Shown here in pieces: positions 3,568-64,000 of a stretch of DNA of 64,000 nt. Where the stretch lies: contig NC_068349.1 of NCBI RefSeq assembly GCF_014633365.1, positions 17,622,753 to 17,686,752 on the forward strand, in the 5' to 3' direction. The notes beneath the pieces were generated by a model. That model saw only the letters and a program-made list of their open reading frames with translations, did no database searches and was not told the DNA's origin. Each line of letters starts with the position of its first letter. Within the stretch, counting starts at the first letter, position 1. The position numbers and the translations under genes were made by a program. This DNA is from Diospyros lotus (lineage: Eukaryota; Streptophyta; Magnoliopsida; Ericales; Ebenaceae).

Positions 3568-5582
3568 TGCTGCATCGCTCACCCTGCATTTATCACTTTT
3601 TGTATTTTTCTTTCACTAATTCAGCTGATTTAGCAACTAATTATGTTCACAGATAGGATGAGGCGTTTAGACTCGCCAGTGCACGAGTGTGATTGTAGCA
3701 GAAAATTTATATGTAATTTTTCCGGGCAAGACCGGGTCGACTCACAGGGAGATTACTCATGGAAGGAGATAACCACGCCAGTTCTTTTGATTAACGGAAT
3801 TATAAAATGAGATAAAACTAAATGTGATATAACTGTAATCTGGAAATGGAGAGATCTTGAGTCAAAACAAATCTGGTGCCAAACCCAACTGATTCACCAT
3901 ATAGCTTTCTGTGATGTAACTAGCAGCTCAAATAGCTTGGGTTTTCAACCATTAAATGTACTACTGAGATGATGATAACTCTTTGCTCAAGCAACCTCCA
4001 TACATGACATGGAGACTCTAAGGTAAGAAGCTATCATAAATCAGTGTATAAATAATGTTTTGACAAAATAAATGCTCGGGGCTTGGGTATGAAAACGTTT
4101 CCAGGTCAAGCAGCCCCCATACATGGCATGGAGACTCTAAGTTAGGCGTACGAACCAATCCAAGCCTGAGGTTTTCGTTAATAACATTTCCCAAACTGCT
4201 TTTGCTTTTGTTACTTTGACATATGGAGTTCTGTTATATTGACTCATCAGTGGCTTTGGGCACCATCTTTGCCTTAACCCAAGAATCGAATTAGCCACAC
4301 ATCTTCATAGGAAGTGCACGACTAAAACTAATCTCTACAGATGAATACACGATTCGTAAAGGAAATAAACTGAGACAACAGATAAGAACTTGGTAAACTA
4401 CTGCTGTATTGATTACTGAAACGAACTACAACTTGAAGTAGAAATTAAAATGGACTTGTAATACAGAGCTCAGAATTAGCAAGAACAACTAGAGTAACTG
4501 AAGTGCTATACGCAAAGAAGGAAATACAGACAAGAACAAAAGTAGGAGCACAGACAAAAGGAAAAGAAAAAAAAAACTCTGCACTTTCCAATGATCTTCT
4601 CTTTTTTTGTGTTATTTTTCTCAGTATCTTCTGCCCTCGCCAACTTCTGATTCCAAAGAATGTTGGTCCCTTTTTAAGCTTATGGCGCATGGAAGTGGGG
4701 ACCATTTGAAAAGTTGTTCAAAAAGTTGGTCGAATTTACCTTAGAGCCACCGCGTGTATTTGCGCATGTCAGAATTTTTGTTCGGCTGCTCATTCGAATG
4801 ACTAGCAGAGATATTCGAATGCTTGCTGAGTTTCTTTTGGCTGATCGGCTCATTCGAATGAATTTTAGTCCTATTCGAATGAATTTCATGCTTTACTGTT
4901 CCTTACACTGCAATTTTCTCGGTCATTCGAATGCAACAGTACTTCTATTCGAATGAATTTCTAATTTTTCTCTTGACTTCTTCATTGCATTCGGATGACT
5001 TGGAGAGCATTCGAATATGGAATTCCTTGGGTTGCTTCTCATTCGAATTACTTAGCCTTCATTCGAATAGATTTCCTTTCTTCTTCAACTTCATTCGAAT
5101 GACTTGGATTTCATTCGAATATGTCTTCACTGCTTCCAAACGATGTGCTCATCCGAATTTCTTCTTATGGTCGGCTCATTCGAATGACTTGGATTTCATT
5201 CGAATATGCACAATCTTATCTGGAGATCTTGATTTTTGTTACTTCTTATTCGAATTAGGCCAAGCTTATCTGAATACATACCCGATATCTTGCATATTCG
5301 AATGTCTGAATGATTTATTCGAATGTTTGAGCAGCTCTCTTCTGTTTTGCTCCATATTTGAATACCTTTGAAGACTCATTCGAATGGCTTTGACTTTCAT
5401 TAGGACACCTTTATTTCTTGACTTTTTATTCCTCTTTCAATCATGCTTTTGGAGAGTATGAGTCATTCTTTCATCTCTTTTCCTTCTTTTGGGCTGCAAC
5501 AAGCAATTCTGGAGATTTTAAGTCGATCAAATGGATTAGGAGGTAATAAAAACATAACAAATATTGCATTTTTTTAACATCA
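3568..5582 (-). repeat. 5' LTR of the Athila-like element (~2.0 kb)
   Basis: Bounded on the left by the primer site (3545-3562) and on the right by TTAACATCA, which is TGATGTTAA on the minus strand. A partial extra copy of its primer-proximal end lies at 2532-3086 because of the tandem duplication. The promoter-distal half holds the ATTCGAAT palindrome array (4792-5385). ORFs in this stretch (4445-5371) have no recognisable product. Confidence 0.7.
4792..5385. repeat. Paired ATTCGAAT palindrome array
   Basis: About 20 copies of ATTCGAAT or one-base variants occur in under 600 bp. Motif starts form pairs 20-22 bp apart: 4792/4813, 4852/4873, 4925/4947, 4989/5009, 5041/5061, 5093/5113, 5178/5198, 5248/5268, 5296/5317, 5356/5378. 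The pairs themselves are 48-85 bp apart. The DNA between motifs is largely not repeated, so this is not an ordinary tandem satellite. Confidence 0.9.
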
Positions 5583-5587
5583 ATCAG

Positions 5588-7059
5588 TGAGGCCCCCACC
5601 CGGATACCCTAGCCAAGCCGAAGAACCCAAGCGAGAGCTCATGAGGTGTAGAGAAAATAGAAAAGGAACTACCTTGACCTACCATGCATGCTCAACTAGG
5701 ATCACTTGAACTCATACTGAAGAAATAACAGTGGAAGCATAAACTCACATCCTAGGCATGCATATGAAAGATAACCGGTCATAGGGTTACATGGTATATA
5801 CATATACACATACAAAAGAGTGCTAGATACTCAAAAGCTAAACATCCATGGCACAAAATCACAAGATATACACCAAACTAGGATCTAGTAGGACTACCCT
5901 ATACACCACTTATCGGGATAGCTCAAAGATTGCTAGCCTCGCCCTCACACTTAGCCTTGCCCTTACTTGGAATGAAGAAAACTAAGAGTGAGTCATAAGA
6001 CTCAGTAAGCATATAAGAAATGAAATGCTGACAAGAGTATGGAAGTTAAAGATAACTCGCACCCAAGTGCAAAACTCATGCAAAGCATGACAACCAACCA
6101 TGCATCACATGTCCATGAATCTCATGATAGATATATAAATACGTCTCATAGTAAAATATGCACATACTGGTCCTTAGGGCCCACATAAGACACATGACAC
6201 CCAATTCCCTATCACAAACATGTCACTGTCTTGAAAGACAGAATAAATAACTCACTGGGGCAAAGCTCTCTTGGGTCGGCGCGATCGGAACCTGGAGCGG
6301 CACGTATAAATTTGGTAAGCAAACTGTGTTCGTAAATCAGGCACGCCAGCTGCAACTACAAACTCATCTATCTGGCACACCAGTTGCGTTCATAAACCCA
6401 TCACAACACCCCCACACGACGCCAGTAACCATGCAATGCACAAATTAATGCAATGATATATGAGCATAAACGTTGATACATAGCCCCCATATGATGCAGT
6501 GCTCGTGTCTAAATATGATGCAGAGGCATAATGAGCATAAACGATGATACATAGCCCCCATAAAATCATGTATCATGCCTTGCTCGCCTCACTAGGAAAA
6601 CACATCTAATGAAATATGCCTGTGGCCAAGCACACTAGTCGCATGAAGCCCCCAAATGCATATCTCATGCCTCTGCATGCACATGAACTGATGATATACT
6701 GGAAATAAAATACAAAGACCACATGCCATAGACTCTTGGCCACTCATCACAATCCCGCATAGTCTAAGCTGAAACCTATCCCATAACAAACCTAGCTTCA
6801 TTCCATGAAAGAAATAGAGAGTGAACAAACTCTCCCGAGCCATTTCGAAGACTCAATACATTATCCAGATTAATCCTCGAAAGACATAAGAGTCATCAAA
6901 GAGAAAATCTCTTGAAGTCACCCGTAGGTCTCCATTGACCCAATCGAATCAACCCCAAACTGACAGTCACTAAATGAAGAAGCCATGGATCGGCACCTCT
7001 CGAGTTTATCTCTCTCTAATTAACTTTCTATTCACACAAACCCTATTCGTTCTATATAA
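5588..7059 (-). mobile_element. Chromovirus-type LTR remnant, minus strand (unassigned)
   Basis: No gene is visible in these 1.5 kb. The left edge (TGAGGCCCCCACCCGGATACCC) resembles the GC-rich terminal segment of chromovirus LTRs read backwards. The interior has the same style as other minus-strand LTRs in the window, with a GAGTCATAAGACTCAGTAAG segment and repeated ACATAGCCCCCAT phrases. A short imperfect duplication occurs within about 6455-6570. The right edge is cut at 7059, where the next LTR starts. Family membership is an inference from style only. Confidence 0.4.
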
Positions 7060-7144
7060 TGACAAATATATCCTAAGAGGAGGGTGAATTGGGATTTGGG
7101 TAAATTTTTGATAGTTTAAAAACTTATAGCATGTAGGACACTAT

Positions 7145-7330
7145 GTTTCGAAACATACCATGTTTCGAAATATACCTTTCTGTTAAGTATGTTTCGAAAT
7201 ATAAGTAAGTATGTTTGAAAACCAAACTTTCTGTCAAGTATGTTTCGAAACCTACAATGATATGTTTTGAAACTTTCCTCTCTATTTAGCTTATTTTGAA
7301 ACTTTTAACTTTTGAAAACGATTCTTTTGA
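7145..7330. repeat. GTTTCGAAAC palindrome cluster, part 1
   Basis: Motif starts at 7145, 7162, 7191, 7213, 7242 and 7264, with weaker copies near 7293-7325. Three pairs are spaced 17, 22 and 22 bp. Variants such as GTTTTGAAAC differ at the central CG. Confidence 0.8.
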
Positions 7331-7915
7331 AAGCATGATCAATTAGAATAAGCAAGTAAAATAGTAAAACAAATTACACACAAGATTTATAGTGGTTCGG
7401 CACTCGCCTACTCCACTACCTTCAAGCTTACCGACTTGAAGGATTTGTAAACACAATCACTTTCACTAGTGATCAACGACACCAAGGGTTTTACCACGGT
7501 TCACCCTAAAACCTTACACAATGAGTTTTTTCGGGCTCAACTCAAACCTTACAACAAGATAAATAACACTTATCTTTTACAACCCAACAATTTGAATATA
7601 ATTAAATACCTTACCAAATAGTTATTACAAACCTATTGGTATGGAGTGAGGAGAGCTTGAAATGATGAGAGCTTCGGTTTTAGTTTGCTTCTCCTTTTCA
7701 CACCACAATGCACACCAAGGATTAATTGAAAGGATCTTCTTTGAGAGCTTGTTGAAAGGGTTCGTTTGCTTGTGTTTGTGGAAAATATCTCTTGTAGATA
7801 TGTAAACTTATGTATGCTTGTAAGAGGTGCTCCATGTCTTTAAAGAATTGATATATATACAAAAAAGATAGAGTTTTGGCTAATTATAACTGTTAGAGAC
7901 AAGATGATAAAGTAG

Positions 7916-8477
7916 GTTTTGAAACACACATTATAGGTTTCGAAACAACACATTTTTACACAGAAGTTTCGAAACATAGATACCATGTTTTAAAACATCC
8001 AGCCTTTACAGCTGGATATGTACCAAGAGACAAAGAGTGGAAGACATCTTTTAAAAATAAAATGATTTTGTTTTATTCTCCACTTACAAAATATTTGAAA
8101 TTAAAACATCAGGGTATGGAGATTATTCCAAAAGAAAGCTTTTAAATAGCTTTCGAACTAAAGTGTAAAAGCATGACAGATTTTCAAATATTATGCTGAC
8201 AAAGTTAGATGTTTTGAAACATACGATATAGGTTTCGAAACATATGCTTAGTTTTCAAACAGGTTTTGAAATATAGCATATAAACTTAGCAAACATTGAA
8301 ACCTTAACAAAAAGACATTTCGAAACATGTATAGAAACATGGCAAAATGATGTTTCGAAACATGGAAAGTTGGTTTCGAAACATGATGCATGAATTTTGA
8401 GATTTTCAAACATTTGAACATTCGCGCCAAAACACTAATCATGCTTGTTTCGAAATATGAAAAACTTATTTCAAAAT
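7916..8477. repeat. GTTTCGAAAC palindrome cluster, part 2
   Basis: Pairs at 7916/7937, 7966/7987, 8211/8232, 8352/8373 and 8447/8468 are all spaced 21 bp. Extra single copies lie near 8251, 8263 and 8317. A motif-free gap (about 8000-8200) separates the groups. Confidence 0.85.
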
Positions 8478-8688
8478 ATGAGATTTTCATAAAAGTTTTT
8501 CATTTTAAGATTGGTTTTTCATCAAATACACTTTATCTTTGTTTTCTACATCTTTTGTTGCTTGTTCAAAAATAAATTCAAATAGATGTTTTTTTCTTCT
8601 TATACTTTAAAATCATAATTTGATAAGTACATTTTTTTCTCATGAAAAAAGTAAAATCTCTTTTTGGAGAAAATGTGGTTTGACTTCA

Positions 8689-8934
8689 GATCTGTCCCCC
8701 TTTGATGTGTTCTCTAATTTTCTTATAAACTTCTTATCTCAAAAAGCTTATATTTAATTATGATATTAGGTTGTCTCCCATATCTTTTTCCAACTTTCTC
8801 TGATTGGTTTTTGTACACAATATATTTATGATGTGTTTATAAACAAAGATACTTATAGATATTGGAATGTATTAGTTGCAGCCTAAAAAAGCCTAAAGAT
8901 TTTTTGAATTTCAAAATTATTTTTCGCCCTTCTT
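8689..8934 (-). mobile_element. Polypurine tract and 3' internal remnant of element I
   Basis: The minus strand reads ATCAAAGGGGGACAGATC directly before the LTR start at 8688, a polypurine tract for plus-strand priming. It matches the AAAAAGGGGGAGAA tract of copia E (about 46660). Beyond it lies AT-rich sequence without an ORF. The right limit near 8934 is approximate. Confidence 0.5.
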
Positions 8935-9312
8935 TGTAACAACTAATTTTCTGGAGATGTATATTTATAGGGTAAGTTTGGAGGCTCAAGCAGCATAGAA
9001 CAAACTAATTGAAGAACATTCAAACAAAAGTGAGAAAGTTCAAAGAGCTAAAAGTGTGTTGGTTAGTGGAATTCTTAGAATTGATGACTTGTTTAATTTG
9101 TCTCTATTTTCAAGTTTGTGGTTTTACTCACTTGTTGTTAAGGGGTTTGTATATGCTAGTAATGTGCTAATGGTTTTTGTTTGGGCAAGGGATTGTATGT
9201 TAGTTCTAACACTAATTAAAAACTAGTGTTACATTTCACTTAGTAAAACCTCAAGCGCAGTCTTAAGAGAGAGGACTAAGCTCTTAGAGCCGAACCTCTA
9301 TAAAAATTCTCA
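8935..9312 (+). mobile_element. Unassigned LTR-like fragment with TATA box
   Basis: No coding sequence. A TATATTTATAGGG near 8960 is followed by a purine-rich leader-like stretch (CAAACTAATTGAAGAACATTC, GAAAGTTCAAAGAGC). This is similar in style to the R-U5 part of copia LTRs such as that of E near 37500. The limits are uncertain and the element was not identified. Confidence 0.3.
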
Positions 9313-10194
9313 TGTTATTTATGGTTACTTTTTGTTATTTTTATTTTGCTATTGGTTTTGGTTTTGATGATGGAAAACATTTTTCTTATGTTTTTGCCTT
9401 AAATCAATTTGTAAAATGATTTTGGTTTCAATTGAAAATCAATTTCAACATTTCATTTTCAATATATCTTGAGGGAGATTGAAAAAATAGAGTTTTATGA
9501 CTCAAAAGATTCTCCTAAATGTGATTCAAAATTGGTTTTAAAGTGTTGGAGAAAATAGAGCAAAATTCTTGAAAAGCAATAGACAAGTTGTTGATCGGTT
9601 CTAAGGAACTGTCGACCACTTTAGTCCTTGTTGTCAACCGGCTCTTATAGCTTGTCAACCGGTCAATTTTTTACTCTCGGTTGTGAACGGTCTACAAGCA
9701 CTACATGCAAATCGATTGACTGTTTTTGAGCATGTCAACCTTTTTTGCTACTAATGTTGATCGATTTTTAAATTTTTGAACTAACCTGTCGACTAATTCT
9801 ATGAATATGTCAATTGTTTTTCTCGCAAACTTCTCCAACGGTTAGTTTTGGAAGCTCACTAATTGCAATGGCCATATTTTTGGATGCACTCATCAAACAC
9901 TATAAATAAAGGGTGGTGGATCATTTAAAGCTCTAAGAGAATTTATTAGAAGCATTCAAATGTTTAAATCTTTCAAGTGCTCAATTGTTCTATTTATTTT
10001 CTCTCAAAAGTTTTGCATTTAATTTATATTATTTGATTTCAAGTTTTGTATTATTTTTGAAAGATCTTGCAACTAAGAAGATTTATCTCTCAGATGATCT
10101 CTTATTGTAAATTTCTTGTATTTGCCTAGTAAGATTTCTAGAGGGCCTACTTGGATAATAGGAGTTTGTATTTCCTAGTCTTGGTGACTAGAAG
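9313..10194 (+). repeat. Left part of the 5' LTR of SIRE-like copia-1
   Basis: The stretch GTTTTGGTTTTGATGATGG near 9355 resembles the LTR beginning of copia E (TTAGTTTTGATGATTAAC). A GTCGAC-type palindrome cluster follows (9592-9815), then a TATA box (CACTATAAATAAAGG near 9899) and a leader. The LTR is interrupted after AGAAG (10190-10194) by solo LTR A and resumes at 25236. The left boundary is a guess because the terminus cannot be fixed by eye. Confidence 0.5.
9592..9815. repeat. Decayed GTCGAC palindrome cluster in the copia-1 LTR
   Basis: Motifs of the type TGTCGAC or TGTCAAC start at 9610, 9632/9653 (21 bp), 9733/9755 (22 bp) and 9787/9808 (21 bp), with others near 9592, 9682 and 9713. 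Most copies carry TG or CA where CG would be. The cluster lies just upstream of the TATA box at 9899. Confidence 0.7.
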
Positions 10195-36991: not shown

Positions 36992-38190
36992 TGTTGAGCC
37001 AACTTGCTCCGTTCAACCTAATATTAGTTTTGATGATTAACAAAAACACATTTCTGTATTAAAAATGTTATTTGATGCCCCTAAATGTTATCTATTTTAA
37101 ATTATAAGATATTATCTAAAGTCCTATATATATGTTAAAATTAGTTTCTCAAATTATAGTAGTGTTATAAAGGTTGTATAGTATTTTTATTTAAGTGTTT
37201 CAAATTTTCTAGTCCAAAAGTTGACTCCCGTATAGGAGAAGTCAACTTCTCTAGTGCTAGTCGATTGGGACTTGGCCACAATCAATATAGCCGAAGCTCG
37301 GGTTGTACAGAGTTGACATAGCCGAGAGCTATGCTCTGACAGTCGACTCCCTTCGGAGGGAAGTTAACTTTGGGTCTCCCTGGAGTCGACTCCTTTCAAG
37401 TTATAATCGACTGTTGGATATGACAGTCAACTGTCCTGATCCAACATTCGGATTTTTAACTCAATTTTTGCTCGTTTCTCTCACCATATATATATATGCT
37501 CTTTAAGAGAAAAGAAAAGTGTGTATGTGTGTGCTCTCTCAAGAACTATCTCTCTAAAAGCAAGAAAGTGCTCAAAGCTCTAAATCCCAATCAAAAAGCA
37601 CTCAAGCTCGTGGATCTACATTGTGCAACCATCTTCGGAGCTCTTGCAATCAAAGAAATGAAAAGCTACCTTGCAAATCCGCTTGAAGGTTAACTATATA
37701 TTTGATTTAATTTGTGTACCTTGTATTTATAGTTACTTCCTTGTAATCTCTTGTGCTTTAATGTTTTTTTGTCTAATGGTAGACATTGTTATAAAATCTA
37801 TAAACATTATCGGTGTATTTGTTGGTTGGTTTCCTAGAACCATTAAAAAATCTAGGTGTAATAGTTTCCGAGGTAAGCCACGGGAAAACCTTGGGGTGTG
37901 TTAAGAATAGTGGAACCCTAAGTGTAGTTGATACCTTAGGAGAGTGGATTAGGCGTGGGATCGCCAAACCACTATATGTCTTGTGTGACTCGTTGTTTTT
38001 ATTTCTTGTGGATCTTGTGCAACTAAATCTCAATCTCAAAGCATTCAAAATATACGAATATATATCAAAGTATTTTTAAGTACAAAAATTAATAAAGAGG
38101 TTTCAAAGAAATTAAAATTAGGTTAAAAGTTTTAGCAACTCAATTCACCCCCCTCTTGAGTTGCCGTTGTATTGCGTCAAGGGACCAACA
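36992..38190 (+). repeat. 5' LTR of copia E (1,199 bp)
   Basis: Bounded by the TGCTT duplication on the left and the primer site on the right (ends GGGACCAACA). The U3 part carries an AGTCGACT palindrome array (37220-37432) just upstream of CACCATATATATATATGC near 37485, the likely TATA region. The end contains CAATTCACCCCCCTCTTGAG. Confidence 0.93.
37220..37432. repeat. AGTCGACT palindrome array in the E 5' LTR
   Basis: Motif starts pair at 21 bp: 37220/37241, 37291/37311, 37341/37362, 37384/37405/37425; 37259/37279 are 20 bp apart. Roughly half the copies read GTTGAC or GTCAAC. The 3' LTR has the same array starting at 46901/46922. Confidence 0.9.
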
Positions 38191-43104: not shown

Positions 43105-43633
43105 AGTCGACTCTCGATCAAGAGTAGTTGACTCCCTAATTACAGTTGACTGACGGTTTCACAGTTGACTCCTTATTCCAATTTGACTGATTGTTCAGCA
43201 TAGTTGACACCCACATATCAGTCGACTAACGGTTCATAACAGTTGACTTCCTTTCAATCAACAATCGACTCCCCAACGTCAGTCAAGTTTAAGCTGATGA
43301 TTTCTCTCATTTTCTCTCTTTTCTCCCTCATCCTCTCAAACCCTAGTGCTCGTCCTTTGCTCCATTTATGCTTTCAACACTCCATCAATCCTTCTAAGTA
43401 ATCATTCATTATTGTTTTATTTTTTTGTTTGTTTTGTTTTATTCGGTTTCTTTAAATGGATTATATTTCATATTGCTAATGGTTTATGTTTCTATTTGTG
43501 TTTATTATATTTGTTGATGTGGTGATTTTGGCAATGTATTTGGTATATTCAAATATCTTTGTTTTTCAAAAACGTTTCCCAGCAGTCGACTTTGTTCATC
43601 CCACAATCAACTTTGTTCTTCCGGAAGTCGACT
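43105..43633. repeat. AGTCGACT palindrome array in the E 3' region
   Basis: Motif starts at 43105, 43126, 43144, 43163, 43181, 43202, 43220, 43241 and 43263 (18-22 bp steps), then 43584, 43605 and 43626 (21 bp steps). With solo LTR G1 and its duplicated CTTGC removed, the next motif (45963) is again 21 bp on. Confidence 0.88.
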
Positions 43634-44658
43634 TGCTGTAACACCCCCTCTCCTAGAACTGCCCGAGAAGAGGTGCTACTGGGGATAATAAAATAAACTA
43701 GCTAATAAATTGAAATTTGATACCATGACTGAACATCTCAATTAACTAGAATAAAAACTCTAAGTCAATACAGACTGAAAACCATAAACTCTGTCTAAGG
43801 GACAATCCCTCAACTGAAATATAAAATAGATCTAAACTGAGAAAACACTATAAAACTTAACAGACTCCCAGACATCTTTTATCTTGAGCGGCTCCACGTA
43901 CACACACTACTGAATACTGATGTTAGGCCCCACATCTGATACTCCCCTGCTAGAACCTGGAGGGGTGAAGAGTACAAGGTGAGCTACAAAAGCTCAGCAA
44001 GTAATAAGCTGGAAAGAATACTGAAGCTGAATCGAAGAATATCGATATTGATAAATAACTCACTGAACTTGTACTGTATAATCACTGTCTGTTTGCATTA
44101 ATAAAAATGTAATGCACATAAACTGTAAATTAAATGCAGGTATGCAACTTTGGCTCATAAGCCCACATAATCTGATAATACATACCTGTATGATCTGAAA
44201 CCTGCATACATAAAAACTGTAAGCATATACTGTGGGCAAAGCCCCTAGCCCCCTGGTTGCCACCAGGCGAGCAACTCATAAACTGAGCTGAAACTGAAAC
44301 TGATGGGATCCCTACTGACTAAGCCGCCTAGCGCACATAATGCAATGCAATGCTCACATAAATGTTGGCACACGATATGTAGTGCTCCATATAAAGTCAT
44401 GCTCAATGCTCATACCAAAATGTATGCACATAATCTCACAAAATAATGCTGATCATGTTATAATAATGCTGAACATGATATGATCTTCATCTATATGTTA
44501 GAATAAAAAGATTCAATGAACTATGATTTAGGGTATGGGTATGATTAACTTGTCATGTTCTGGCTTATGAATTCAATGTTGGAAGGTATTGAATACATTA
44601 ATTGAATTAAACTTGAATTAGGACTCACTGGAAGCTAAATTGGACTTCTGGAAAAGTC

Positions 44659-45010
44659 ATCCGAATATCAGGAAGGATATCCGGATATGATGAAAGATAT
44701 TCAGATATGAAGAAGGCTCATCCGGATACACTGACATTCAAAGCAGAAGCTATTCGGATATGCTGGGATGTATTCAGATATGAACTAGGACATCCAGATA
44801 TGATTCTGGTCACCCGGATATCTCACTGATGCATTCGAATATAACTGGGGATTATTCGAATGCAAAATTCAACTTTTGAGGGAGGCATCCAGATATCAGG
44901 CGAGACATCCGGATATTATCTTGACCTTTCCGGATGTATAAACAAACCATCCGGATATCATACTCGAAGAACTTTTAGATACATTCGGATACGATACAAG
45001 GTATCCGGAT
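44659..45010. repeat. ATCCGGAT/ATTCGGAT palindrome array in G1
   Basis: Motif starts: 44659, 44679, 44699, 44720, 44752, 44772, 44792, 44812, 44833, 44854, 44887, 44907, 44928, 44949, 44983, 45003. Steps are 20-21 bp except three of 32-34 bp. Confidence 0.92.
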
Positions 45011-45023
45011 ATTAGAACTTAGA

Positions 45024-45200
45024 GTAATAGAACTTGCAATCCAAAATGGATGAGGATTAATAGAACTTGCAATCCAAAATGGATGAGGATTAATGGAACT
45101 TGCAATCCAAAATGGATGAGGATTAATAGAACTTGCAATCCAAAATGGATAAGGATTAATGGAACTTGCAATCCAAAATGGATAAGAAGTAATAGAACTT
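45024..45200. repeat. 33-bp tandem repeat in G1, just over five copies
   Basis: GAACTTGCAATCC recurs at 45030, 45063, 45096, 45129 and 45162, exactly 33 bp apart, with a partial copy at 45195. Copies differ at one or two bases (for example GATGAGG/GATAAGG). The related LTR G2 lacks this expansion. Confidence 0.93.
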
Positions 45201-46017
45201 ACTCATAACTTCACTGTTATACACACACATATATATATATATATATACGCCTCTACTTACTGATATAAATCTGAAAACTACAACGAAGAACTGGAATAAT
45301 CTGAAATCAAAACTGATATGAACCTGTAATGGAAGGGATTACAGGAAGAATACTTGCCTGATAGAACTCTCTGATCGAACCCTGGAGCGATCCTGAAGAC
45401 TCTAGCAAGCCTCTGCTATCTCTTGGCCTTTATGTTCTTCACACGACGTGAAGAAAAGCTAAGCTAATGGGCTCTATATATAGACATAAAGTTCTAGATC
45501 TCTTTCCTTTTATAACTTGGTGACTCTCAAAATCTTCTCCTATTGGGACTAGGAGACTCTTAATCCAAATCCATCTCATACATGGATTCTCATTCTCCTT
45601 TAAATACATAATCTCACTTGATTAATAATAATACAAAAATTATTATTAATACTCTCAATTAATAATAAAACTCCAAAATTACCTTCATGCCCTTGCATTT
45701 AATTTCCACAAAATAAATTCCATTTAAATGCTATTTAAATACTATTCTCTCAATTAAAAATCTAAATTGCCACCTTGGCAAATTCCTTTAACTCCAACAT
45801 TAAAAAGAAATAAATGTTGTTCTTTTCCTTCAAAATCTCTAAATTGCCATATTAAATAATTAATTGGCAAAATCACTTAATCAAATACTTCAACAATTAA
45901 TTAAATCATTCTTGAATAAATACCGGGCCCTCTAACGAGTCGTTACACTTGCACTCATTCGAAATCGACTCTTCATCTTTTTCAGCTTAGTCTCAAACAC
46001 CTCAACCATATTTAAGC

Positions 46018-46370: not shown

Positions 46371-46674
46371 AGTTATAGTATTGAACATTTATGTTTTTAC
46401 ATAACCTTTATTGTAATATCTCTTGGCATGTATGTTTGTATATTTTTTTTGGCAGTTGGCATATTGAGCTCTTAAGGTGGTCCAAATTTTTTGAAAAAAT
46501 TACATTTCTAATGTATGCTATAAGTCTTTTAAATAGGGGGAGATTTTTTCGAAAGATTTTATCTAATTCTTCTTATAAAAAATTTCAAAGAATGTATTAG
46601 TTCAAAATTAAAGGGGGGAATTTTTTTTAAATAATATTTTAAAGTTTTATGCCATTATCAAAAAGGGGGAGAAT

Positions 46675-49531
46675 GTTGAGCCAACTTCTCCGTTCAACCT
46701 AATATTAGTTTTGATGATTAACAAAAACACACTTCTGTATTAAAAATGTTATTTGATGCCCCTAATTGTTATCTATTTTAAATTATAAGATATTATCTAA
46801 AGTCCTATATATATGTTAAAATTAGTTTCTCAAATTATAGTAGTGTTATAAAGGTTGTATAGAATTTTTCTTTAAGTGTTTCAAATTTTCTAGTCCAAAA
46901 GTTGACTCCCATATAGGAGAAGTCAACTTCTCTAGTGCCAGTCCACCAGGACTTAGCCACAGTCGATATAGCCGAAGCTTAGGTTATACAGAGTCTACAT
47001 AGTCAAGAGTTATGTTTCGATAGTCGGCTCCCTTCGGAAGGAAAATGACCATGGGTCTCCCTAGAGTCGACTCCTTTCAAGTTATAGTCGACTGTTGGAT
47101 AGGATAGTCGACTGTCTTGATCCAACGTTCGAATTTTTAACCCAATTTCTACTCGTTTCTCTCACCATATATATGTGCTCATTAAGAGAAAAGAAAAGTG
47201 TGTATGTGCGTGCTCTCTCAAGAACTATCTCTCTAAAAGCAAGAAAGCGCTCAAAGCTCTAAATCCCAATCAAGAAGCACTCAAGCTCGCAGATCTACAT
47301 TGTGAAACCATCTTTAGAGCTCTTGCATGATGAGGAACCCCATGATTAGGTGTACCAATGCAAGGGTTTAAGCCATTTTTAAAAACATTTTTTAAAAACA
47401 TCAAAGATAGTAGCGAAAACAATATCAAAAACACCTTGCAGGACCTGTTTCTCATGTCCATATGCTATACGAAACCAAACCATACCATAGGGGGTTTAGT
47501 TATTTTACCTATCAACACTTGAAGGTTGATGTAGGGTTGAAATCCACTCGAGGCAACTACAGTAGCTCCAAAACAACTCCCGAATAATCCTTTTGGTTAG
47601 ATCGAAACCGTCCCCTGAAACTACGAGGGGCCTATTGAGTCCACGCTCTTGCTAGATGGTGAATCCCATTGCTTTCTCTTTGTGCTAGACAGAGAGAACA
47701 AGGGAGATTATGGATGGGATTCAAATGGGTTCAAAAGAGAGGAAACCCAAGCACGAAAACAGTCTCATTATTTTGCTTGGGTTACTAACTATAGCAATGG
47801 AAGGGTAAGAAGCTGAGGAAGAGAAGAGCAAGGGTGAGTGTTTTCTCTGTAATCCAAAAGAGAAAATGAGCCAAAGATGAGAGGGTTTAATGCAACAGTT
47901 GCAATCCCCTCAATCTCTCTCCTTTTGGCTTATATATTAAACACGCAAAACCCTAGCCGCCTAAATCAATAACTCTTAATGACGATTTCAGCCTTAATCA
48001 CTTAGTCAACCATCACACCCGGATATGTGTTTAGCCTTCTAGGTTCAATATTAAGTAGAAATCAATAAACATCAACTGCCTTGATGTTAACCAAACACCT
48101 ATGGTTTACAACGAGGATCTCTCCATCTCCTTGAAATACCTCGAAAGACCATGAGTGACAACTAGCATTATGTTAGGGCGATCCTACCAATAATGAAGTC
48201 TTACTTTAGTATGGAACCTATTTGGTCCTTCAATTCCTGCGTACTATAATCCCTTCATCAATTATCATCCCGATTTAGTGAGAGTTGTGGACTGATCAAA
48301 CTCACTAACTTGATGACTATGCCAAAATCAATGTGGTGAGATTGAGATAACACATCGGAACTCTTTCTGACATTGGAACACTTTCCAATCAAGTGTACCC
48401 TGGCCAGGGGTTTCTACAATCAAGACCACCACTGATCGCATAGGATGTTCACCTCACGCCGGAGGTCGATGGATCCCATTAGCAATCACCTGCCTCCATG
48501 TGCCACTGCACATGGACCACTCAGTACATCTCCCACCCAATAACCGGATGGTTCTTAGCAACAACAAATCCCTAGCATCGACACACAAGATAACTGTGTT
48601 GCCTCCGGTTAAAGGACCAATAACACAATCGAAGCTTGTGATAAACCATAGATCCTCTGAGCCATGCTATCTATCATGTGTGTCACATTCAGTAAGTGTT
48701 CCATTAACACCTACCCACATGTATACTATATCCATCTCATGGATTATGGCATGCAACTCACCATCCTTTATCATTAGTATCTCATACTAATTAAAGGTAG
48801 TATCCCATGTGCCAGTCTATACTCGACTAATCATAGTCCCCATCTGAGAAGTCTAAGGACTGGGAACAACCATTAAGATATCCTTATTACAAAGGTCAAT
48901 TATCATATATTCTTAACACTTAAGAATAAGACCTTCAACAGAAAATCTAAGGACTCATTCATATTAATGATTGGAGAGCTATGAATGAAGATATGACCTT
49001 AAATATGAAAACACATTTTATTACATATTGTAAGAATTATATTATTGGTCCCATAAATATAAATTCCGGATGCTATCTAAATCTAGCATTAGGGCACCAA
49101 CACTAACATTGCAATCAAAGAAATGAAAAGCTACCTTGCAAATCCGCTTGTAGGTCAACTGTATATTTGATTTAATTTGTGTACCTTGTATTTACAGTTG
49201 CTTCCTTGTAATCTCTTGTGCTTTAATGTTTTTTTGTCCAACGATGGACATTGTTGTAAAATCTATAAACATTATCGGTGTATCAGTGTATTAGGCGTGG
49301 GATCGTCGAACCACTATATATCTTGTGTGCCTCGTTGTTTTTATTTCTTGTGGATCTTATGCAACTAAATCTCTATTTCTAAGTGATCAAAATATACAAA
49401 TATATATCAAAGTATTTTTAAGTACAAAAATTAATAAAGAGGTTTCAAAGAAATTAAAATTAGGTTAAAATTTTTAGTAACTCAATTAACCCTCTCTTTA
49501 GTTGCCGTTGTATTGCGTCAAGGGACCAATA
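46675..49531 (+). repeat. 3' LTR of copia E, split by solo LTR F
   Basis: Own parts are 46675-47327 and 49114-49531. It matches the 5' LTR, including the palindrome array (46901-47120). It lacks about 128 bp relative to the 5' LTR: after ATCGGTGTAT (near 49280) it jumps to the segment matching 37950 (TTAGGCGTGGGATCG). It ends GGGACCAATA before TGCTT. Confidence 0.9.
47328..49108 (-). mobile_element. Solo LTR F (copia, TGTTAG group, 1,781 bp)
   Basis: On the minus strand it begins TGTTAGTGTTGGTGCCC at 49108 and ends GGGGTTCCTCATCA at 47328, flanked by TTGCA (47323-47327, 49109-49113). It is related to the D LTRs (TCTAGCATTAGGGC segment and many shared phrases in the 48200-48960 part) but belongs to a separate subfamily. 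The small ORFs inside (47270-47461 minus, 48500-48790 plus) have no recognisable product. Confidence 0.9.
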
Positions 49532-51860: not shown

Positions 51861-51872
51861 GTTCTGATACCA
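51861..51872 (-). other. Primer-binding site of copia D (initiator Met type)
   Basis: The minus strand reads TGGTATCAGAAC, one base inside the LTR end at 51874. It shows that the D2 LTR is the 5' LTR of the copy to its left. Confidence 0.8.
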
Positions 51873-56146: not shown

Positions 56147-58863
56147 TGTAACACCCCCTCTCCTAGAACTGCCTGAGAAGAGGTGTTACGGGAAATAAAA
56201 ATAAAACTAACTGATAATCTAAAATCTGATACCATAAAGGAATATCTCAATCATCTGAAATAAGAACTCCGAGTCAACATAAACTGAAAACCATAAACTC
56301 TATCTAAGGGACAATCCCTCAACTGAAATATAAAATAAACCTAAATTGATAAGACATCAACTAATCCCAGACATCTTTTATCTTGAGCAGCTCCACGTAC
56401 ACACACTATAGACCACTACTGCTAGGCCCTACTTCTGGTACTCCCCCGCTAGGACGTGGAAGGGTGAAGAGTACAAGGTGAGCTACAAAGCTCAGCAAGT
56501 AATAAGCCGGAAAGAATAGCTGAAGCTGAATCGAAGAATATCGATACTGATAAATACTTACTGAACTTGCACAGAGTATGATCACTGTCTGTTTGCATTC
56601 ATAAAAATGTAATGCACATAAACTGTAAACTAAATGCAGGTATGCAACTTTGGCTCATAGGCCCACATAATATGATAAAACATACCTGACTGATCTGAAT
56701 CCTGTAGACAGAAAAAACTATAAGCACATACTGTGGGCAAAGCCCCTAGCCCCTTGGTCATCACCAGGCAAGCAACTCATAACTAAGCTGAAACTGATAC
56801 TATGGGATCCCCGCAGACTAAGCCGTCTGGTGGGCATAATGCAATGCAATGCTCACATAAATGCTGGCACACGATATGTAGTGCTCCATATAAAGTCATG
56901 CTCAATGCTCATACCAAAATGTATGCATTTAATCTCACAAAATAATGCTGAACATGTCATAATAAAAAAAATGCTGAACATGATATGATCTTCATCTATA
57001 TATTGGAATACAAAGATTCTATGAATTATGATTTATGGTATGAGCATGATTAACTTATCATATTCTAGCATATAAATTCAATATTTGGAGGTATTGAATA
57101 TTTTTATTTGAATAAAACTTGAATTAAAACATCACTGGAAATTAAATTGGATTTCTGGAAAAGTCATCCGGATATTAGGAAGGATGTCTGGATAGGAGGA
57201 ATGACATCCGGACATGAAAAAGGCTCATCCGGATACACTGGCATTCAAAGGAGAAGCTATTCAGATATGCTGGGATGTATTCAAATATGAACTAGGACAT
57301 TCGGATATGATTCAGGTCATCCGGATATCTTACTGAGGCATTTGGATGCTACTGGAGACTATTCGAATATGAAATTTAACTTTTGGGAGAGGCATCCAGA
57401 TATTTAAGGAACTATAGGATCATCCGGATATGGACTAAGACATTCGGATATTACTTACAGAGAATAATAGACACATTCGGATACGACTCAAGGCATCCTA
57501 ATATTACTCACAAAAAGCCTTATACTCATTCAGATACAATCACAAAGTATTCGGATATCACTCACAAACAACTAAACACATCCAGATAAGACTCAAGGCA
57601 TCCAGATACTACTCACAATCACTGCTGGACACATCCGGATATGAACGAGATCTATTCGAATACCATTCACAACAGGCACTAGACTCATCTGAATGTGATA
57701 TAAACCATTCGGATATATTGCTAAAGCCATCTGGATATGCCTAAAGGCTATCCAGATGTCACTCATAAAACTATTAAGCCATCCGGATATGCACATAGGC
57801 CATCCAGATGTCACCCACACAAAACTTTCTGACTCATCCGGATAGACTCTATTCCATCCGGATGCTACTCACAAGCTTTGAAAAATCCATCCGGATATGG
57901 AGGAACTCATCTAGATGTCTGTAACTTTTAAACCCAAAAATGAACGAACACAGAGACTGAAACTTGAGCAAATCTTAATGAAACTATTCCATTATGAAAG
58001 AAATCATGGCAAAACGAATCCCAATTGATATGAAAAAACTTTAAGGATGATTCAAAGATAGTATTGGATTGAATTGCTATAAAAATCATGCACATCTAGA
58101 TTATGCATTCACTGTTTACGTATATATATACGCACTGCAACTGATATAAAATCTGAGAACTCAATGAAGAACTGGAATAATCTGGAAAACTGATATGAAC
58201 CTGTAATGGAAGGGATTACAGGAAGAATACTTGCCTCGATAAATCTTGATCGAATCACACGATCTCAACCAGAAATCTCCTATGCAAAGCAACTTCTGCA
58301 ACTCACAGACTTCTTAGGTCTCTACTCCTCATGCGGCGTGAAGAAAACTATGGCTTATGTGCCTTTATATAGAGAAAGAAATAGCCTTAGAAACCCATCT
58401 CCTTCTCCTTTTATAATTTGGAGTCCTTATTCTTAATTAACTTGGAATCCACTTCCTACTACAGCTAGGAGACTCTCAATCCGAATCCATCTCACGCATG
58501 GATTCTCACTCTCCCTTAAATACATAATCTCACTTAATTAATAATAATACAAAAATTATTATTAAAACTCTCGATTAATAATAAAACTCTAGAATTACCT
58601 TCATGCCCTTGCATTTAATTTCCACAAAATAAATGCCATCAAATACTATTTAAATACTATTCTCTCAATTAAAAATTACTAGATTGCCACCTTGGCAAAT
58701 TGTTTTAACTCCAAAATTAAATAGAATTAAATGCTATTCTTTCCTTTTAAAACTCTAAATTGCCACATTAAATAATTAATTGAAAAAATCTCTAAATCAA
58801 ATACTTCAATAATAAATTAAATAATTCTTGAACAAATGTTGGGCCCTCTAAGGGGTCGTTACA
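56147..58863 (-). mobile_element. Solo LTR G2 (TCCGGA-array family, 2,717 bp)
   Basis: Starts TGTAACACCCCCTCTCC and ends GGGGTCGTTACA, flanked by ATGTG (56142-56146, 58864-58868). Closely related to G1. Its palindrome array (57176-57916) is longer than that of G1, and it lacks the 33-bp tandem repeat. Confidence 0.92.
57176..57916. repeat. ATCCGGAT palindrome array in G2, alternating 20-21 and ~33 bp
   Basis: First half in 20-22 bp steps: 57176, 57196, 57216, 57237, 57259, 57279, 57299, 57319, 57340, 57361. Second half mostly in pairs: 57422/57442, 57475/57495, 57528/57549, 57580/57600, 57633/57654, 57687/57707/57729/57750, 57781/57802, 57836/57856, 57889/57909. Pair-to-pair gaps in this half are about 31-34 bp. 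Confidence 0.93.
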
Positions 58864-59540
58864 ATGTGTCACTCTAAGACACCATACTTGGCTTCCAAGC
58901 TTCCATCTCAACCATCCATGTGACATTACCACATTAATTCATCAATTTAGGAAAAATTAATTATTTTCTCAAATAATTGAATATCCACTATTTTTCATTC
59001 TCCACAATTTAATTCCTTCATGGAATTTACTCCAAAATTACCAAAAATACCCTTTGTGAATTACTACTCCCATTTATCTCCTCATTTTTACAAAAATGGA
59101 AAGTTAATTCACTTCCATACTTAATTCGACCTAGGAATTATTTCTAATTTACCAAAATACGCTTTATTGGACTTCACTATCCAAATTACCAAAATGCCTC
59201 TCTCATAAGAGACCCTTATTCTCAAGGATCCATCACCTTCTTAAGGGCATTTTTGGAAGTTTCTCACTTCCTTTCTCATTCTCCTAACACCAGAACACTG
59301 GGTGTTACAGAAATCTACCAGGAAGTCTAGGGACTCTTTCATAAGATGAGAGGGGGAGATATGAATTAAGATATGACCTTTATTGATTTCAAGAATGGAA
59401 GTCTAAGGACTCATTCATATGATGAGAGGGAGAGATGTGAATTAAGATATGACTTTTATTGATATCAAGAATAATTAACAATACCTTTTACATACGTCCC
59501 ATGTAATGTAAATCTAGCATCTAGGGCACTTTCACTAACA

Positions 59541-61316
59541 AACGCCTAGTTACACTAATGCTAATTTACCAGCATCAACTATCAAATTGTCGCTTGGTAT
59601 ACAATACCCATCTAATGAAAATGGCGATCCAGTTGAGCCTGTTCCCAAAAGCTTTAGTTAGCGGGTTGACAACATTATCCAATGATGCACGTCTCCATGT
59701 GCTACCATCTCTTTAAGCAAAAGGAATTACCACTGGAATTGTTTGGATTTTTTATGAGACCCAGGTTCCATAGCCTGTGCAACAATGCTAAGAAAGTTGT
59801 AATACAAAAGTATAAACAGCTCCTTGTAATGAACCACTTTGGTTCATAAAGGAATCCCGTCAAACAACTTCCACAGCAGCATCCCATGCCATAACATAAA
59901 TGGCTTCCATAGTGAATCTTGTAGTTATCAGCATGGAACACTTTCTAGTTGATTGCTCCACCATGAATAACAAAGACAAACTCAAACGTGGATATCATAT
60001 CATCCACATCAAACTAAAAGTCTGAATCTGTGAAACCGTCTACACGACGATCACCCACTCCATAAGCCTGAACAATATCCCAGGTCCTTCGCAGGTACTT
60101 CTTGATATGTTTCATGGCCACCTAGTGCTTTTCATCTGGGTTAGACTAATACCTGCAGGTGACACTCATCATATAGGCGATATCAGGCCTTATACATAAC
60201 ATAGCGAACATGAGATTCCCTTCCCCCCCTCCCTCCCCGCGCTAAAGCATAATGGACACACTCAATGTGCTGCCTTTCTTTCAAAGTCTTTGGAGACATT
60301 CTTCTAGAGAGTGGAACTCCATTCTGAATGGGTATCAACCATTTCTTGGGGTTCTCCAGGCTAAACAATTTTAGCATCTTATCTATATACTGGGTTTAGG
60401 AGGGACCAATCCATCTCCTCGCTTTATTGGCATAGACATGGATTCCCTAGATGAAGGTCACATCTTCCATATCTTTCATGGAGAAATTACATGACAATTA
60501 GAGCTCTATTGACATCAACATGCTTACATCACTCCCCATAAGGAGAATGTCATCCACATACAAGATAAAGTAGGCTCTTATGCTCTCACTTACCTTCTTG
60601 TATATACAAGGCTCATCTGGATTCTTTATGAAACCAAATCCTTTGATTTCATAATCAAAATGAATATTCCAAGAGCGCGATATCTGCGCAAGATCATAAA
60701 TGAACCTCTTTAGTTGGAAAACCTATTTAGGATCTACTGATGGGAATCCCAACAACAGTTCTATGATTGGATCTTCCTTAAGATAACAATTCAGGAACGC
60801 CAATCACATCCATTTACGAGATCGCATAATCACAATGTGCGACAATGGCTATCATTATCCTAATGAAAACTTCCATCTCTGACTGCATAGCCTCCAACCA
60901 TTTCTTAGAATCGATAACACATATCACCTCTTCATAGGTAGTAGGATCTACCACTAGATCACCCTCCCCATGAAGGAACAAATCCTACATCACCTCCATA
61001 CTTAATTGAAATTATTCTTGAGGGTAAGATACTCTACCAAACCTACGAAAAGCCTCGGGGATGACATCTGACGAACTGACTAGCTTAAAATTCTGACTAG
61101 GTTCTATATATGCCCTGGAGGAATCCTCTTCTAGATCTATTTTCCTTTCGATGCCCTATTTCTTGAGAAATTCCTTGTCCAAGAATATAACATTTCTACT
61201 TACCAGAATTCTCTGATCACTTGGAAAATAAAGCCGATATCCCTCTTGATGGAGCAGATACCCCCACAAATCTACCTTCGTCAAAGAAGACTTCCAAATT
61301 ATCTATTTTACAGCTT
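59541..61316 (-). pseudogene. pol: Second copia D copy: RT-RNase H end, truncated
   Basis: Parallel to 32658-34385 over its length, including the RNase H tail, RT YVDDILLMG near 60590-60565 and the integrase C-terminal block near 61250. It starts directly at the D2 LTR end, where a polypurine tract would be, so D2 is also the 3' LTR of this copy. Similarity to the first copy fades at about 61316 (after ATCTATTTTACAG). A C-run (CCCCCCTCCCTCCCC near 60222) is private to this copy. No open frame is long enough to be functional. Confidence 0.8.
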
Positions 61317-61410
61317 CCAACTTATTTGTTTTATAGCCTTATTACAGGCGAATGATGAATGATGAACAATGATTTATATGGAACTTCCCTGTCGACTACA
61401 CTATATATAT
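61317..61410. other. Short unassigned spacer
   Basis: About 95 bp between the truncated D pol and LTR K. I see no gene or repeat that I can name. It ends in CTATATATAT. Confidence 0.4.
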
Positions 61411-64000
61411 TGTAACGACTCTAGAGTCGGTCTAGATGTTTTAATACTTAATGTCGGTTTAATGGCATTTTAAATACGGGCCTAAGTATAAAAAAAATTA
61501 AATTAAATGATAAATAGCTTTGATGGCATAGAAATAATTCTAGATTGAATAATCTTATTTTACGATTCACATGATCGTGAAAATTAGTGTATTGGTCTAA
61601 TTTTTAAGAAAATTGGGAAATAATGTAATGGGCCACAATTAATTAGTTAATGAGTTCATCAAGTGGGCCAGTAAATTGCTGGGTTAGGCTTGGGCCCAAT
61701 GGTGAGGGAATTTAAATTTTTATGTGGATCTGAAAAGGAAAATGGAAATTTAAAATATGTGTCAAATATCAAATGAGATAAAGGATGGGCAAATCAATCT
61801 TTTTGGGGAAGGGGGCAGCACAACCAGCAACTGTTCCTTCTGCTTCTTCTTTTTCTGCTTTTAGCCAGAATGCATCTCCTATTTCAGGCAGTGCATATCC
61901 TCTCTTTTCCTTCACTTTCACTGTTCCATTGCTCTCATTCCTCTCTTTTTTAATTTCTGTTGTTTGTGTTCCTGCCGTGTGCCTTCTCTACCATTGGAGT
62001 GAAGAGAGAGCTCTTCAGATAGTAAAACAATCTTCCAGGCAAGTTCTCCTTCTCGCACCACTCTTTTATGTTCATTTTGTTTTTCCATTCGAGAATTCTT
62101 TTGTTCGTAAGAGTATGCAATTAGATGATCAATTGAAGCTATTCTTCTTCTTCTCTGTAAATATATTGTTCCTATATATATATATACATATATACACCCA
62201 GTTATATATTCCCTTCTAATTTAGCATTGGATCATCCCAGATTTTCAATATTTTCAATTGGGATTGTTTTCCCCAATCTTCTTTTAGAATGGTGTAGCCA
62301 TAAGTATTGCTTGTGTTATATATATATATGTATAAATCATTGCCTTCATAAGTGAGTTGTAGAATCATTTTGCAGTCATCCGAATAGGCAATGGCTTATC
62401 CAAATGAGTCTTGGGAAGTCATGTGAGTAACATCTGGATGAGTGTGTGTCTCATCTGGATATATATATATATATATATATCAACTCATCCGAATGCTACG
62501 CTCCAAAAATAGCCATATTCGGATAGATCACCGTGGCAGCAAACTTCAAGCCCAATTTTGACCTCTATTCAGCCCGAATTTCTGAAAACTAAAAATATGA
62601 AAGTTGTAGATCTTTTTCTTGAATTTTCATATCATCTTGAATCATCTCAATCAGATTTCGAATGAGAGAGGTATGCCTAGAATACCAAACGCTGTTGAAC
62701 TGTATAGTCACATTAGAATGTATTGCAATAGCAACAAAATTCAAGCCCAATTTTGACCTCCATTAAACCCGAATATCTGAAAACTCAAAACACAAAAGTT
62801 GTAGATATTTTTCTTTTCTTTCCATAGAATCTTGAATCATCTCAATCGGAGTTCGAATGAGAGTGTTATGCCTAAAATACAAAACCTTATCGAAGCTGAA
62901 TTTCTGAAACATGGTGCATCCGAATGACTTAGCCCATATCCGGATAGCCATCCGGATGCGCTACTGTTGCATCCGGATATCACCCACATACTTGACTTCG
63001 AACATCTGGATGTCTCACCTCATATCCAGATATCACTCTCAAAAACTCCCAAAGACATCCGAATATGCCTCCAACCATCTGGATATCACTCAATTCTCCT
63101 CCAACATATCCGAATAGGCCATAAACCATCCGAATGCACTTTCCCATATTCGAACATATATGATAAAATCTGAATACCCTATTTGATTTTTCCAAAATAC
63201 ATATCAATATCAATTTAACATAATTATTAAATGAATCATCGAAGATTATATGATGGGAAAAATAACATATTAAATCAATATTACTCTTCAATGGTGAATC
63301 AAGATTTAACCTTAAATATCATCTCTCAAAAATTATTTTTGTGTTATAATTTACATCTTGATCGTGGTAAATGTTATGATGTAAGATATGTTGAATTATC
63401 TAATGATGGTAAAATACCCGGTATGGGTAAATGGTGTTGAAATTATGAATATTGAGGAAACGAGAATTTAAATGCATGTGGTTGGCAAATGCATACATGA
63501 TGTATACACGTGCATGTTATATATATATAAATTTTGTGCACTTACTATTTTGCACAGAGGGAAAGGGTACCTTAGAGCATTTGGCACGAGACGAGATGGC
63601 TATAGCTCGATAGGTTGGCTCTATATTTATTTGTGAGATTTTGTTTATATGATACACTTGGCATGTGTTGATTGATGGCTTGCAAGCCTACGAGATTTGA
63701 TATTGATATTAAATTTATATGCACATTTTCATAGTGATATATGGTGGCATGATGCATTTAACTTGGAATTGATCAAGTCCTAAATTATGAATCTCGTATT
63801 TAACTGTTGAGTTCTTGATTACTCTTTGGTATTACTATATTCTTGGATTTTGTTCATTGTTTGTTGTTCCTCGAATTTGTTGAGCCTTGTTCCTCACTTG
63901 ATCTTCTTTGCCATTCTAGGTAAAGAAAAAACTATTATTGGGGGCGAGTCTAATGGGACTAAGGCCCAGGGATAGTGGTGTATAAAGACGCGTCCTAATT
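61411..64000 (+). repeat. LTR K, plus strand, related to G1/G2, runs past the window end
   Basis: Begins TGTAACGACTCTAGAGTCGG, like the minus-strand beginning of G (TGTAACGACTCGTTAGAGGG). It carries ATCCGGAT/ATCCGAAT palindromes at 62378-62525 and 62918-63155 with the same spacing as in G. Upstream parts are AT-rich with GGGCC words. A TATA-rich segment lies near 62170-62200 and an (AT)10 run at about 62459-62480. The ORF at 61785-62219 is hydrophobic and pyrimidine-rich, with no recognisable domain. Whether this is a solo LTR or the 5' LTR of an element to the right cannot be told. Confidence 0.65.
62378..63155. repeat. ATCCGAAT/ATCCGGAT palindrome array in LTR K (two clusters)
   Basis: Cluster 1 starts: 62378, 62398, 62432, 62453, 62487, 62517 (steps 20, 34, 21, 34, 30). 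Cluster 2: 62918, 62938, 62950, 62971, 63004, 63024, 63057, 63077, 63108, 63128, 63148 (steps mostly 20-21 and 31-33). Two copies of a CAAGCCCAATTTTGACCTC segment (62548 and 62742) lie between them. Confidence 0.9.

Follow-up and report, generated by a model that had tools for sequence, protein, structure and literature searches.

Helically phased arrays of CG-centred palindromes in LTR retrotransposons of Diospyros lotus

Long terminal repeat (LTR) retrotransposons of several families in a 64,000-nucleotide stretch of the Diospyros lotus genome (assembly GCF_014633365.1, contig NC_068349.1, positions 17,622,753 to 17,686,752 of the forward strand; hereafter the window) carry arrays of short palindromes with a central CG; these arrays are real and go beyond chance, and in those built from two of the words the spacing is quantised in steps of about 10.5 bp. 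From this arrangement we propose that the arrays are probably cooperative binding platforms for a dimeric DNA-binding protein, itself probably host-encoded, that is predicted to drive transcription. The carriers are an Athila-like LTR (G), a Sirevirus-like LTR (copG), a Sirevirus-like copia element (D), two solo LTRs of a single family, T (K and E), and an LTR with a degenerate array (F), all of which are listed in Table 1.

Palindrome arrays and their helical spacing

Direct counts in the window agree with the words and positions given in an initial annotation of this DNA: ATTCGAAT occurs 21 times (17 of these at 4792-5385), ATCCGGAT 17, TTTCGAAA 14 and AGTCGACT 10 times. Neighbouring CG-centred palindromes of the same word, 9-70 bp apart, number 36 against 0 in 200 block-wise dinucleotide shuffles, and the peak at 20-22 bp, which the same annotation had proposed to compare with shuffled sequence, comprises 13 such neighbours and does not arise in the shuffles (0). 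Palindromes centred on AT, TA or GC, used as controls, give 4, 7 and 0 neighbours (null means 0.5, 0.4 and 0.1), none of them at 20-22 bp. The arrays also emerge from an unbiased scan that made no use of the annotated word list and retained 8-mers with at least three different letters and at least five distinct-context copies in 700 bp: 19 of the 20 qualifying 8-mers lie inside palindrome arrays, and the remaining one, TTTCAAAA, spans both TTTCGAAA arrays.

When one mismatch is allowed, 43 of 100 neighbours stand 20-22 bp apart (random placement: mean 6.8, maximum 18 in 5000 draws), and each of the five sets tested shows this excess (0 to 5 of 2000 draws reach it). A second class, annotated at 31-34 bp and tested at 29-34 bp, proved much weaker with the words pooled (19 of 100; random mean 9.2, maximum 21). 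Restricted to exact copies, the 20-22 bp excess persists in G (0 of 2000 draws) and D (18 of 2000) and does not hold in copG (831 of 2000), E (483 of 2000) and F (146 of 2000), where few exact copies remain. The spacings of AGTCGACT are mostly 18-22 bp.

Pooled over the window with at most one mismatch, the copies show a best period of 10.7 bp, with R at 0.49 where 500 null draws reach at most 0.28; by single set, the phase is reached by 1 of 2000 draws in E (period 10.7 bp), 10 in F (10.6 bp) and 59 in G, the last falling to 2 of 2000 when only exact copies are used. A further test was made on eight ATTCGAAT arrays, consisting of L013, G and six loci from among the first places listed for a genome-wide ATTCGAAT pair pattern, in which 147 of 149 exact sites were used (two isolated sites were dropped): the best period is 10.5 bp (R 0.68; highest null value 0.23 among 2000 draws). 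Judged by phase only, six of these arrays are matched by no more than 4 of 2000 draws and the G array of the window by 8, while that of L038 is not significant (139 of 2000). Because the pattern used to find the loci demands one 21-bp pair, it inflates their counts at 20-22 bp and leaves the phase of all other spacings unaffected. Removal of neighbours closer than 24 bp (71 of 133 remain) leaves R at 0.67 against a jitter maximum of 0.44, and removal of those closer than 36 bp (60 remain) leaves it at 0.66 against 0.49. On average the spacings miss a whole turn by 0.89 bp, compared with an expected 2.63 bp. Since homologous arrays are not independent (three of family T, the two of L040 and L042, and two of the G family), the test was also made with one array per group (L013, L039, L040 and G), which yields R 0.68 (null maximum 0.27).

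Across the assembly of 630,139,270 bases, ATTCGAAT-N13-ATTCGAAT, that is, two copies 21 bp apart, occurs 4271 times, as against 5 for a reversed-letter control. A 200-kb sample, made of 20 stretches of 10 kb taken at 3 Mb on 15 contigs and at 13 Mb on five, contains no same-word CG-palindrome pair within 70 bp; 40 kb near the window, not selected by content, holds one TTTCGAAA array and a further ATTCGAAT array whose first spacings are those of G. In IMG/VR, triple-word patterns were found on 3, 3 and 6 contigs; judged by word counts, GC content and short excerpts, none of these could be recognised as a plant LTR, and no retroelement relatives were found there. One of its contigs (L003, GC 0.61) carries ATTCGAAT pairs exactly 21 bp apart at 2794, 5701, 9802 and 9922, which look like operator pairs and would represent an independent use of the two-turn spacing.

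Sharing, switching and decay of the words

Contrary to the initial view that each family has a word of its own, ATTCGAAT is common to Athila-like elements and family T, and T itself is divided, three of its copies using ATTCGAAT and two ATCCGGAT. Among the ATTCGAAT loci, L038 is a copy of the G family (86%); L039 carries 26 copies between an open reading frame (ORF) resembling the end of pol, without a Pfam match, and an ORF matching PF20167, a layout like that of the linker of D; and L040 and L042 have their arrays downstream of gag, that of L040 being 37% identical to the Athila-like gag of the window. L013, L037 and L041 are LTRs of family T, 81-88% identical to each other, K and E over the longest flank matches. 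Their arrays lie between the same flanks as those of K and E; they contain 17, 14 and 12 exact copies of ATTCGAAT, respectively, and no ATCCGGAT, whereas K and E have 5 and 9 copies of ATCCGGAT and two of ATTCGAAT each. In an unrooted tree of the five sequences, based on about 730 bp of flank, K and E are set apart by a branch with 100% support. At least one array-wide change of word within T, unpolarised, is what these sequences indicate. Neutral decay of ATCCGGAT to ATTCGAAT by C-to-T changes on both strands was rejected as the source of the second word, because the array of L013 consists of 17 ATTCGAAT, 2 ATCCGAAT, 1 ATTCAAAT and 0 ATCCGGAT, as opposed to the mixed decay in E and K.

Elements of the arrays larger than the word also recur. 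An 18-mer consisting of TACTGTTGC followed by ATTCGAATG, which includes the word, is found in the window, L013, L037, L038, L039 and L041 and is absent from L040, L042 and the 200-kb sample; in F, the same nine letters stand before ATCCGGAT. Either array pieces were passed between families, or the phrase may belong to a composite site. An extended palindrome of 20 bp, AAATTCATTCGAATGAATTT, is present once in L013, twice in L039, twice in L040 and once in L042.

Descent of all arrays from one satellite was rejected, in line with the original claim: once the words are masked, no similarity of at least 60 bp is left among the LTRs of G, T, D and copG, and most of the 28 pairwise comparisons of masked spacers from eight arrays fall within the null. 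Similarity is clearly above the null between L039 and L040 (88 against a maximum of 57) and between G and L039 (38 against 28); it is uncertain, with 28 tests, for G-E (27 against 25) and T-copG (30 against 26), which exceed all 100 nulls, and for G-L040, reached by 1 of 100. Two further pairs depend on the scoring, E-F (reached by 0 of 300 or 74 of 100 nulls) and G-L013 (0 of 200 or 85 of 100), and no claim is drawn from them. The shared spacer segments and the recurring 18-mer imply that array pieces have probably been shared between arrays too, so that convergence, which the initial annotation had inferred from common spacing with different words, is only one part of the explanation.

Within arrays, the words are kept better than the DNA around them. 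In G, 17 of the 22 sites within two mismatches are exact, and spacer identity is 0.40 against 0.26 in shuffles; across G, K and E it amounts to 40-43% against 26-28%, so the intervening DNA is not wholly unique, as had been supposed of most of it. Weak spacer similarity is seen in G, K, E, the short spacers of copG and the linker of D, and falls short of significance in D5, F and the long spacers of copG. The arrays thus grew at least partly by tandem duplication, after which the spacers drifted and the word was kept. Among one-mismatch copies from all arrays, not all independent given that K and E, and likewise both D LTRs, are homologous, 48 of 55 differ by C/G transitions, 30 at the central CG, compared with 34 of 120 for one-mismatch words outside arrays; as judged from these sequences, the pattern is that of methylated-cytosine decay. 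The observed/expected CpG ratio of the spacers ranges from 0.17 to 0.70 (0.31 in G), and in words within one mismatch the CG is kept at between 3 of 7 sites (D linker) and 19 of 20 (G).

These data bear on the possibility that the arrays are functionless minisatellites, in which short units were duplicated in tandem, leaving a regular spacing with the word as the remnant of the unit. Such an origin would account for the weak spacer similarity and for the difference in array length between K and E, yet it sits poorly with the nearly invariant word of G amid spacers close to random, with a quantisation that persists when the short classes are left out and when only distinct distances are counted, and with the presence of a CG-centred palindrome in each lineage; we regard it as highly improbable.

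A proposed protein-binding platform and its alternatives

DNA palindromes are typical sites for dimers, and sites placed whole turns apart lie on one face of the helix, where neighbouring proteins can touch; the same-face placement of the palindromes fits cooperative dimeric DNA-binding proteins. In the platform that we favour, one dimer would sit on each palindrome, whole-turn spacing would bring the sites to the same side so that adjacent dimers touch, tandem duplication would enlarge the array and raise occupancy, and a change of word would mark a change of protein partner. That one word serves both Athila-like elements and T argues for a common, hence probably host, reader, and the switch within T points to a changed partner.

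The position of several arrays relative to predicted promoters is compatible with transcriptional activation: the array ends about 115 bp upstream of the TATA-like site in G, 57 bp in copG and 55 bp in both LTRs of D. The linker arrays of D and L039 precede a possible second gene. Any single function of the arrays must be exerted from more than one place, which is possible for enhancers and VANC-type targets alike.

Several observations weigh against the platform. Taken alone, the arrays of copG (1557 of 2000 draws) and D (663 of 2000) are not helically phased, and the spacing of TTTCGAAA tends to alternate between about 21 and 29 bp, the latter not being whole turns; a TTTCGAAA array near the window (L043, 5451-5579) alternates strictly, with spacings of 21, 29, 21, 29 and 21 bp. 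The same-face placement advanced in the initial annotation consequently holds for ATTCGAAT and ATCCGGAT, with their 10.5-bp quantisation, and not for TTTCGAAA and AGTCGACT, which are not phase-coherent alone. Residual spacer similarity implies tandem duplication and hence spacings that are not all independent events. Between K and E, mismatched columns number 14 of 96 in words, 21 of 151 in spacers and 115 of 998 elsewhere; words therefore change after insertion as fast as spacers, and any selection must have acted in the active lineage. Finally, the TATA predicted in K and E (TATAAAAGGA, about 500 bp upstream of the array, with the same string in the other gypsy LTR of the window) would place the array of family T downstream of the transcription start; this string was not found in the T LTRs L013, L037 and L041.

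As to the identity of the reader, the LIN54 (CXC) family is a candidate at the level of a hypothesis only. In the passages of PMC4974476 considered here, CXC domains of animal proteins recognise the pseudo-symmetric TTYRAA of the CHR element; TTCGAA in two of the four words, ATTCGAAT and TTTCGAAA (GTTTCGAAAC), fits this consensus, as do the decay products TTTGAA, TTCAAA and TTTAAA, whereas ATCCGGAT and AGTCGACT do not. LBD proteins, possible readers of TCCGGA, were set aside: the only occurrence of TCCGGA found in the literature searched is a primer.

An element-encoded reader is the main rival to the host-encoded platform, ahead of RNA hairpins and, in third place, of minisatellites. Here the reader would be, for example, the product of an extra ORF after pol; it would bind its own family's arrays and remove DNA methylation, as VANC proteins do, and the words would diverge by co-evolution of protein and target. 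The arrays do lie in non-coding parts, at several positions that include the space between pol and a second ORF (D and L039); they have grown by tandem duplication, with words that differ between sister LTRs as VANC targets do between VANDAL groups in the portion of PMC5735166 consulted; and the C/G-transition decay (48 of 55 one-mismatch copies) fits methylated DNA. A private system would, however, not be expected to have ATTCGAAT in common with another family, as Athila-like elements and T do, unless one parasitises the other. The extra ORF of L039 matches PF20167 only, with no relative of solved structure detectable by sequence and no homolog at an E-value of 0.001 among 7989 candidates scored, and VANC targets, as described in that portion, are oriented, non-palindromic nine-base motifs. 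We judge this rival unlikely. Likenesses in the same source are dense arrays of short motifs in non-coding parts of transposable elements, tandem growth and change between related elements; differences are that VANDAL elements are DNA transposons with an oriented YAGTATTAY motif and a known element-encoded binder. The comparison drawn in the initial annotation is a fair analogy.

Alternatively, the palindromes could act in RNA, folding the element transcript into hairpins that yield small RNAs (a role suggested for maize Sireviruses) or that promote RNA dimerisation. Four arrays fold far better than shuffled sequence (z -6.6 in G and -3.9 in E with 20 shuffles each, -4.6 in D with 200 and -5.7 in copG with 100), though any repeated palindrome folds well and these scores are no independent evidence; maize Sirevirus palindromes are small-RNA hotspots according to the relevant parts of PMC5311732 and PMC10760457. 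Steps of 10.5 bp kept over 2 to 10 turns reflect the geometry of duplex DNA and are not predicted by hairpins; we consider an RNA-level role improbable.

Part of the architecture has a published counterpart, which qualifies the earlier statement that no description of it was known. RM boxes of Sireviruses (Bousios et al. 2010, PMC2829016) are described in the sections considered as high-copy palindromic motifs, at least eight to an element, a short way upstream of the TATA and upstream of env, with 13 words, one to each element; Ty1/copia elements were compared, and the repeated motif was called Sirevirus-specific. The palindromes of D cluster at a similar place before the TATA in both LTRs, and the Vitis word CGGTCGACCG has its core, GTCGAC, in common with AGTCGACT of D; the CGG-CCG core of 12 of the 13 published words is absent here (ATCCGGAT contains CCGG), and helical spacing, Athila-like or T-like carriers and word switching are not described in those sections. 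D has an array in its linker after pol, and no intact env-like ORF was seen in the window; the element carries 2 exact copies in the 5' LTR and 4 in the linker, or 7 and 9 within one mismatch. D and copG belong beside the Sirevirus RM boxes, with words that lack the CGG-CCG core. G and T are not Sirevirus carriers, the gag of G being of gypsy type (PF03732) and the T LTRs having no similarity to those of D and copG. A 2016 study (PMC4728375, as cited in PMC5311732 and PMC10760457) reported rapidly evolving palindrome clusters in the regulatory part of LTRs; as summarised there, its words are longer (CACCGGACNNNGTCCGGTG) and are treated as small-RNA hotspots. SIRC elements (PMC10342631, in the part consulted) are likewise short repeats split by diverse DNA, in or near transposable elements including Athila, and differ in having units of 10-29 bp in 2-8 copies, about 57% of them without palindromes, with no helical spacing described; the arrays reported here, with words of 8-10 bp and up to 26 exact copies, lie outside those limits.

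As whole words, ATTCGAAT, GTTTCGAAAC, ATCCGGAT and AGTCGACT were not found in the open-licence literature searched. Ranked lists from the same literature gave no description of arrays in Athila-like or T-like LTRs, whole-turn quantisation, shared words or word switching, some of which the 2016 Sirevirus follow-up could contain. What appears to be new is therefore the extension to other LTR families, the helical phasing, the sharing of words and their switching.

More tentatively, the platforms may be instances of a docking device common to several lineages, in which whole-turn palindromic address words are shared and are rewritten array-wide in step with a reader protein. Such an address system could serve activation or anti-silencing, and a switch would mark the capture of a new, possibly element-encoded, partner. 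If so, the regulatory arrays of plant LTRs would have a readable grammar of palindrome, whole-turn spacing and switchable word; the words could then guide a search of binding data for their cognate proteins, a common factor on which different retrotransposons rely could be recognised, and the switching of partners by parasite and host would be open to test. Family T, with homologous LTRs and two words at the same array place, offers a natural experiment.

Carrier elements

Table 1. Carrier elements and arrays in the window, and one ORF at another locus. Positions are those of the window unless a locus is named.
Feature	Position	Strand	Remarks
G, Athila-like 5' LTR	3568..5579	-	gag (PF03732) at 1784-2449; primer site 3545-3562; ends approximate, by eye
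ATTCGAAT array of G	4792..5385	-	17 exact copies; upstream of TATA-like TTAAAAAGGG
copG, Sirevirus-like LTR	about 7050-8500	-	CAATTCACCC signal at 7091, minus strand
TTTCGAAA (GTTTCGAAAC) array of copG	7917..8476	-	7 exact, 12 within 1 mismatch; upstream of TATATATA
Second TTTCGAAA array of copG	7146..7317	-	4 exact, 7 within 1 mismatch; downstream of TATA
D, Sirevirus-like copia, 5' LTR	36992..38190	+	Met-type primer site 38193; CAATTCACCC at 38141; gag and pol domains downstream
AGTCGACT array, D 5' LTR	37219..37432	+	2 exact, 7 within 1 mismatch; upstream of TATATATATATG at 37487
AGTCGACT array, D linker after pol	43105..43288	+	2 exact, 7 within 1 mismatch
Further AGTCGACT cluster, D linker	43584-43633		2 exact copies
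AGTCGACT array, second D-type LTR (LTR start 46674)	46900..47113	+	3 exact; TATA ~47168
K, solo LTR of family T inside D linker	43637..45947	-	5-bp duplication CTTGC
ATCCGGAT array of K	44659..45010	-	5 exact, 17 sites within 2 mismatches
E, solo LTR of family T	56147..58863	-	5-bp duplication ATGTG
ATCCGGAT array of E	57166..57916	-	9 exact, 30 sites within 2 mismatches; spacings mostly 20-21 and 31-34 bp
Degenerate ATCCGGAT/ATCCGAAT array, F LTR (start ~61412)	62378..63135	+	two clusters, 62378-62524 and 62918-63135
PF20167 ORF	L039 1918-3552		545 aa, directly after array; candidate array reader if readers are VANC-like

The primer-site pattern of G is one that we take to be Asp-type. D is taken as Sirevirus-like from a copia gag with RVT_2 and from its LTR-end signal CAATTCACCC, together with a repeated polypurine tract (PPT), GGGGGAGA, at 46536 and 46665 before the second LTR; some of these lineage signals are given in PMC2829016. 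E, annotated at first as copia, turned out to be a solo LTR of the same family as K. Members of this family start with TGTAACGA and end with GTGTTACA, and presumably are Tekay-like, a class that we assume for a family known here from LTRs alone. F has a 44-bp piece of flank resembling L013.

The Athila-like element also contains a 1.04-kb tandem duplication (2050-3088 and 3086-4124, 99.7% identical) that comprises the LTR end, the primer site and the start of gag and leaves two copies of the primer site. A 33-bp tandem repeat of 5.3 copies (45022-45200) adjoins the array of K and is absent from E, and L038 includes a stretch of repeats similar to it, next to a K-like piece.

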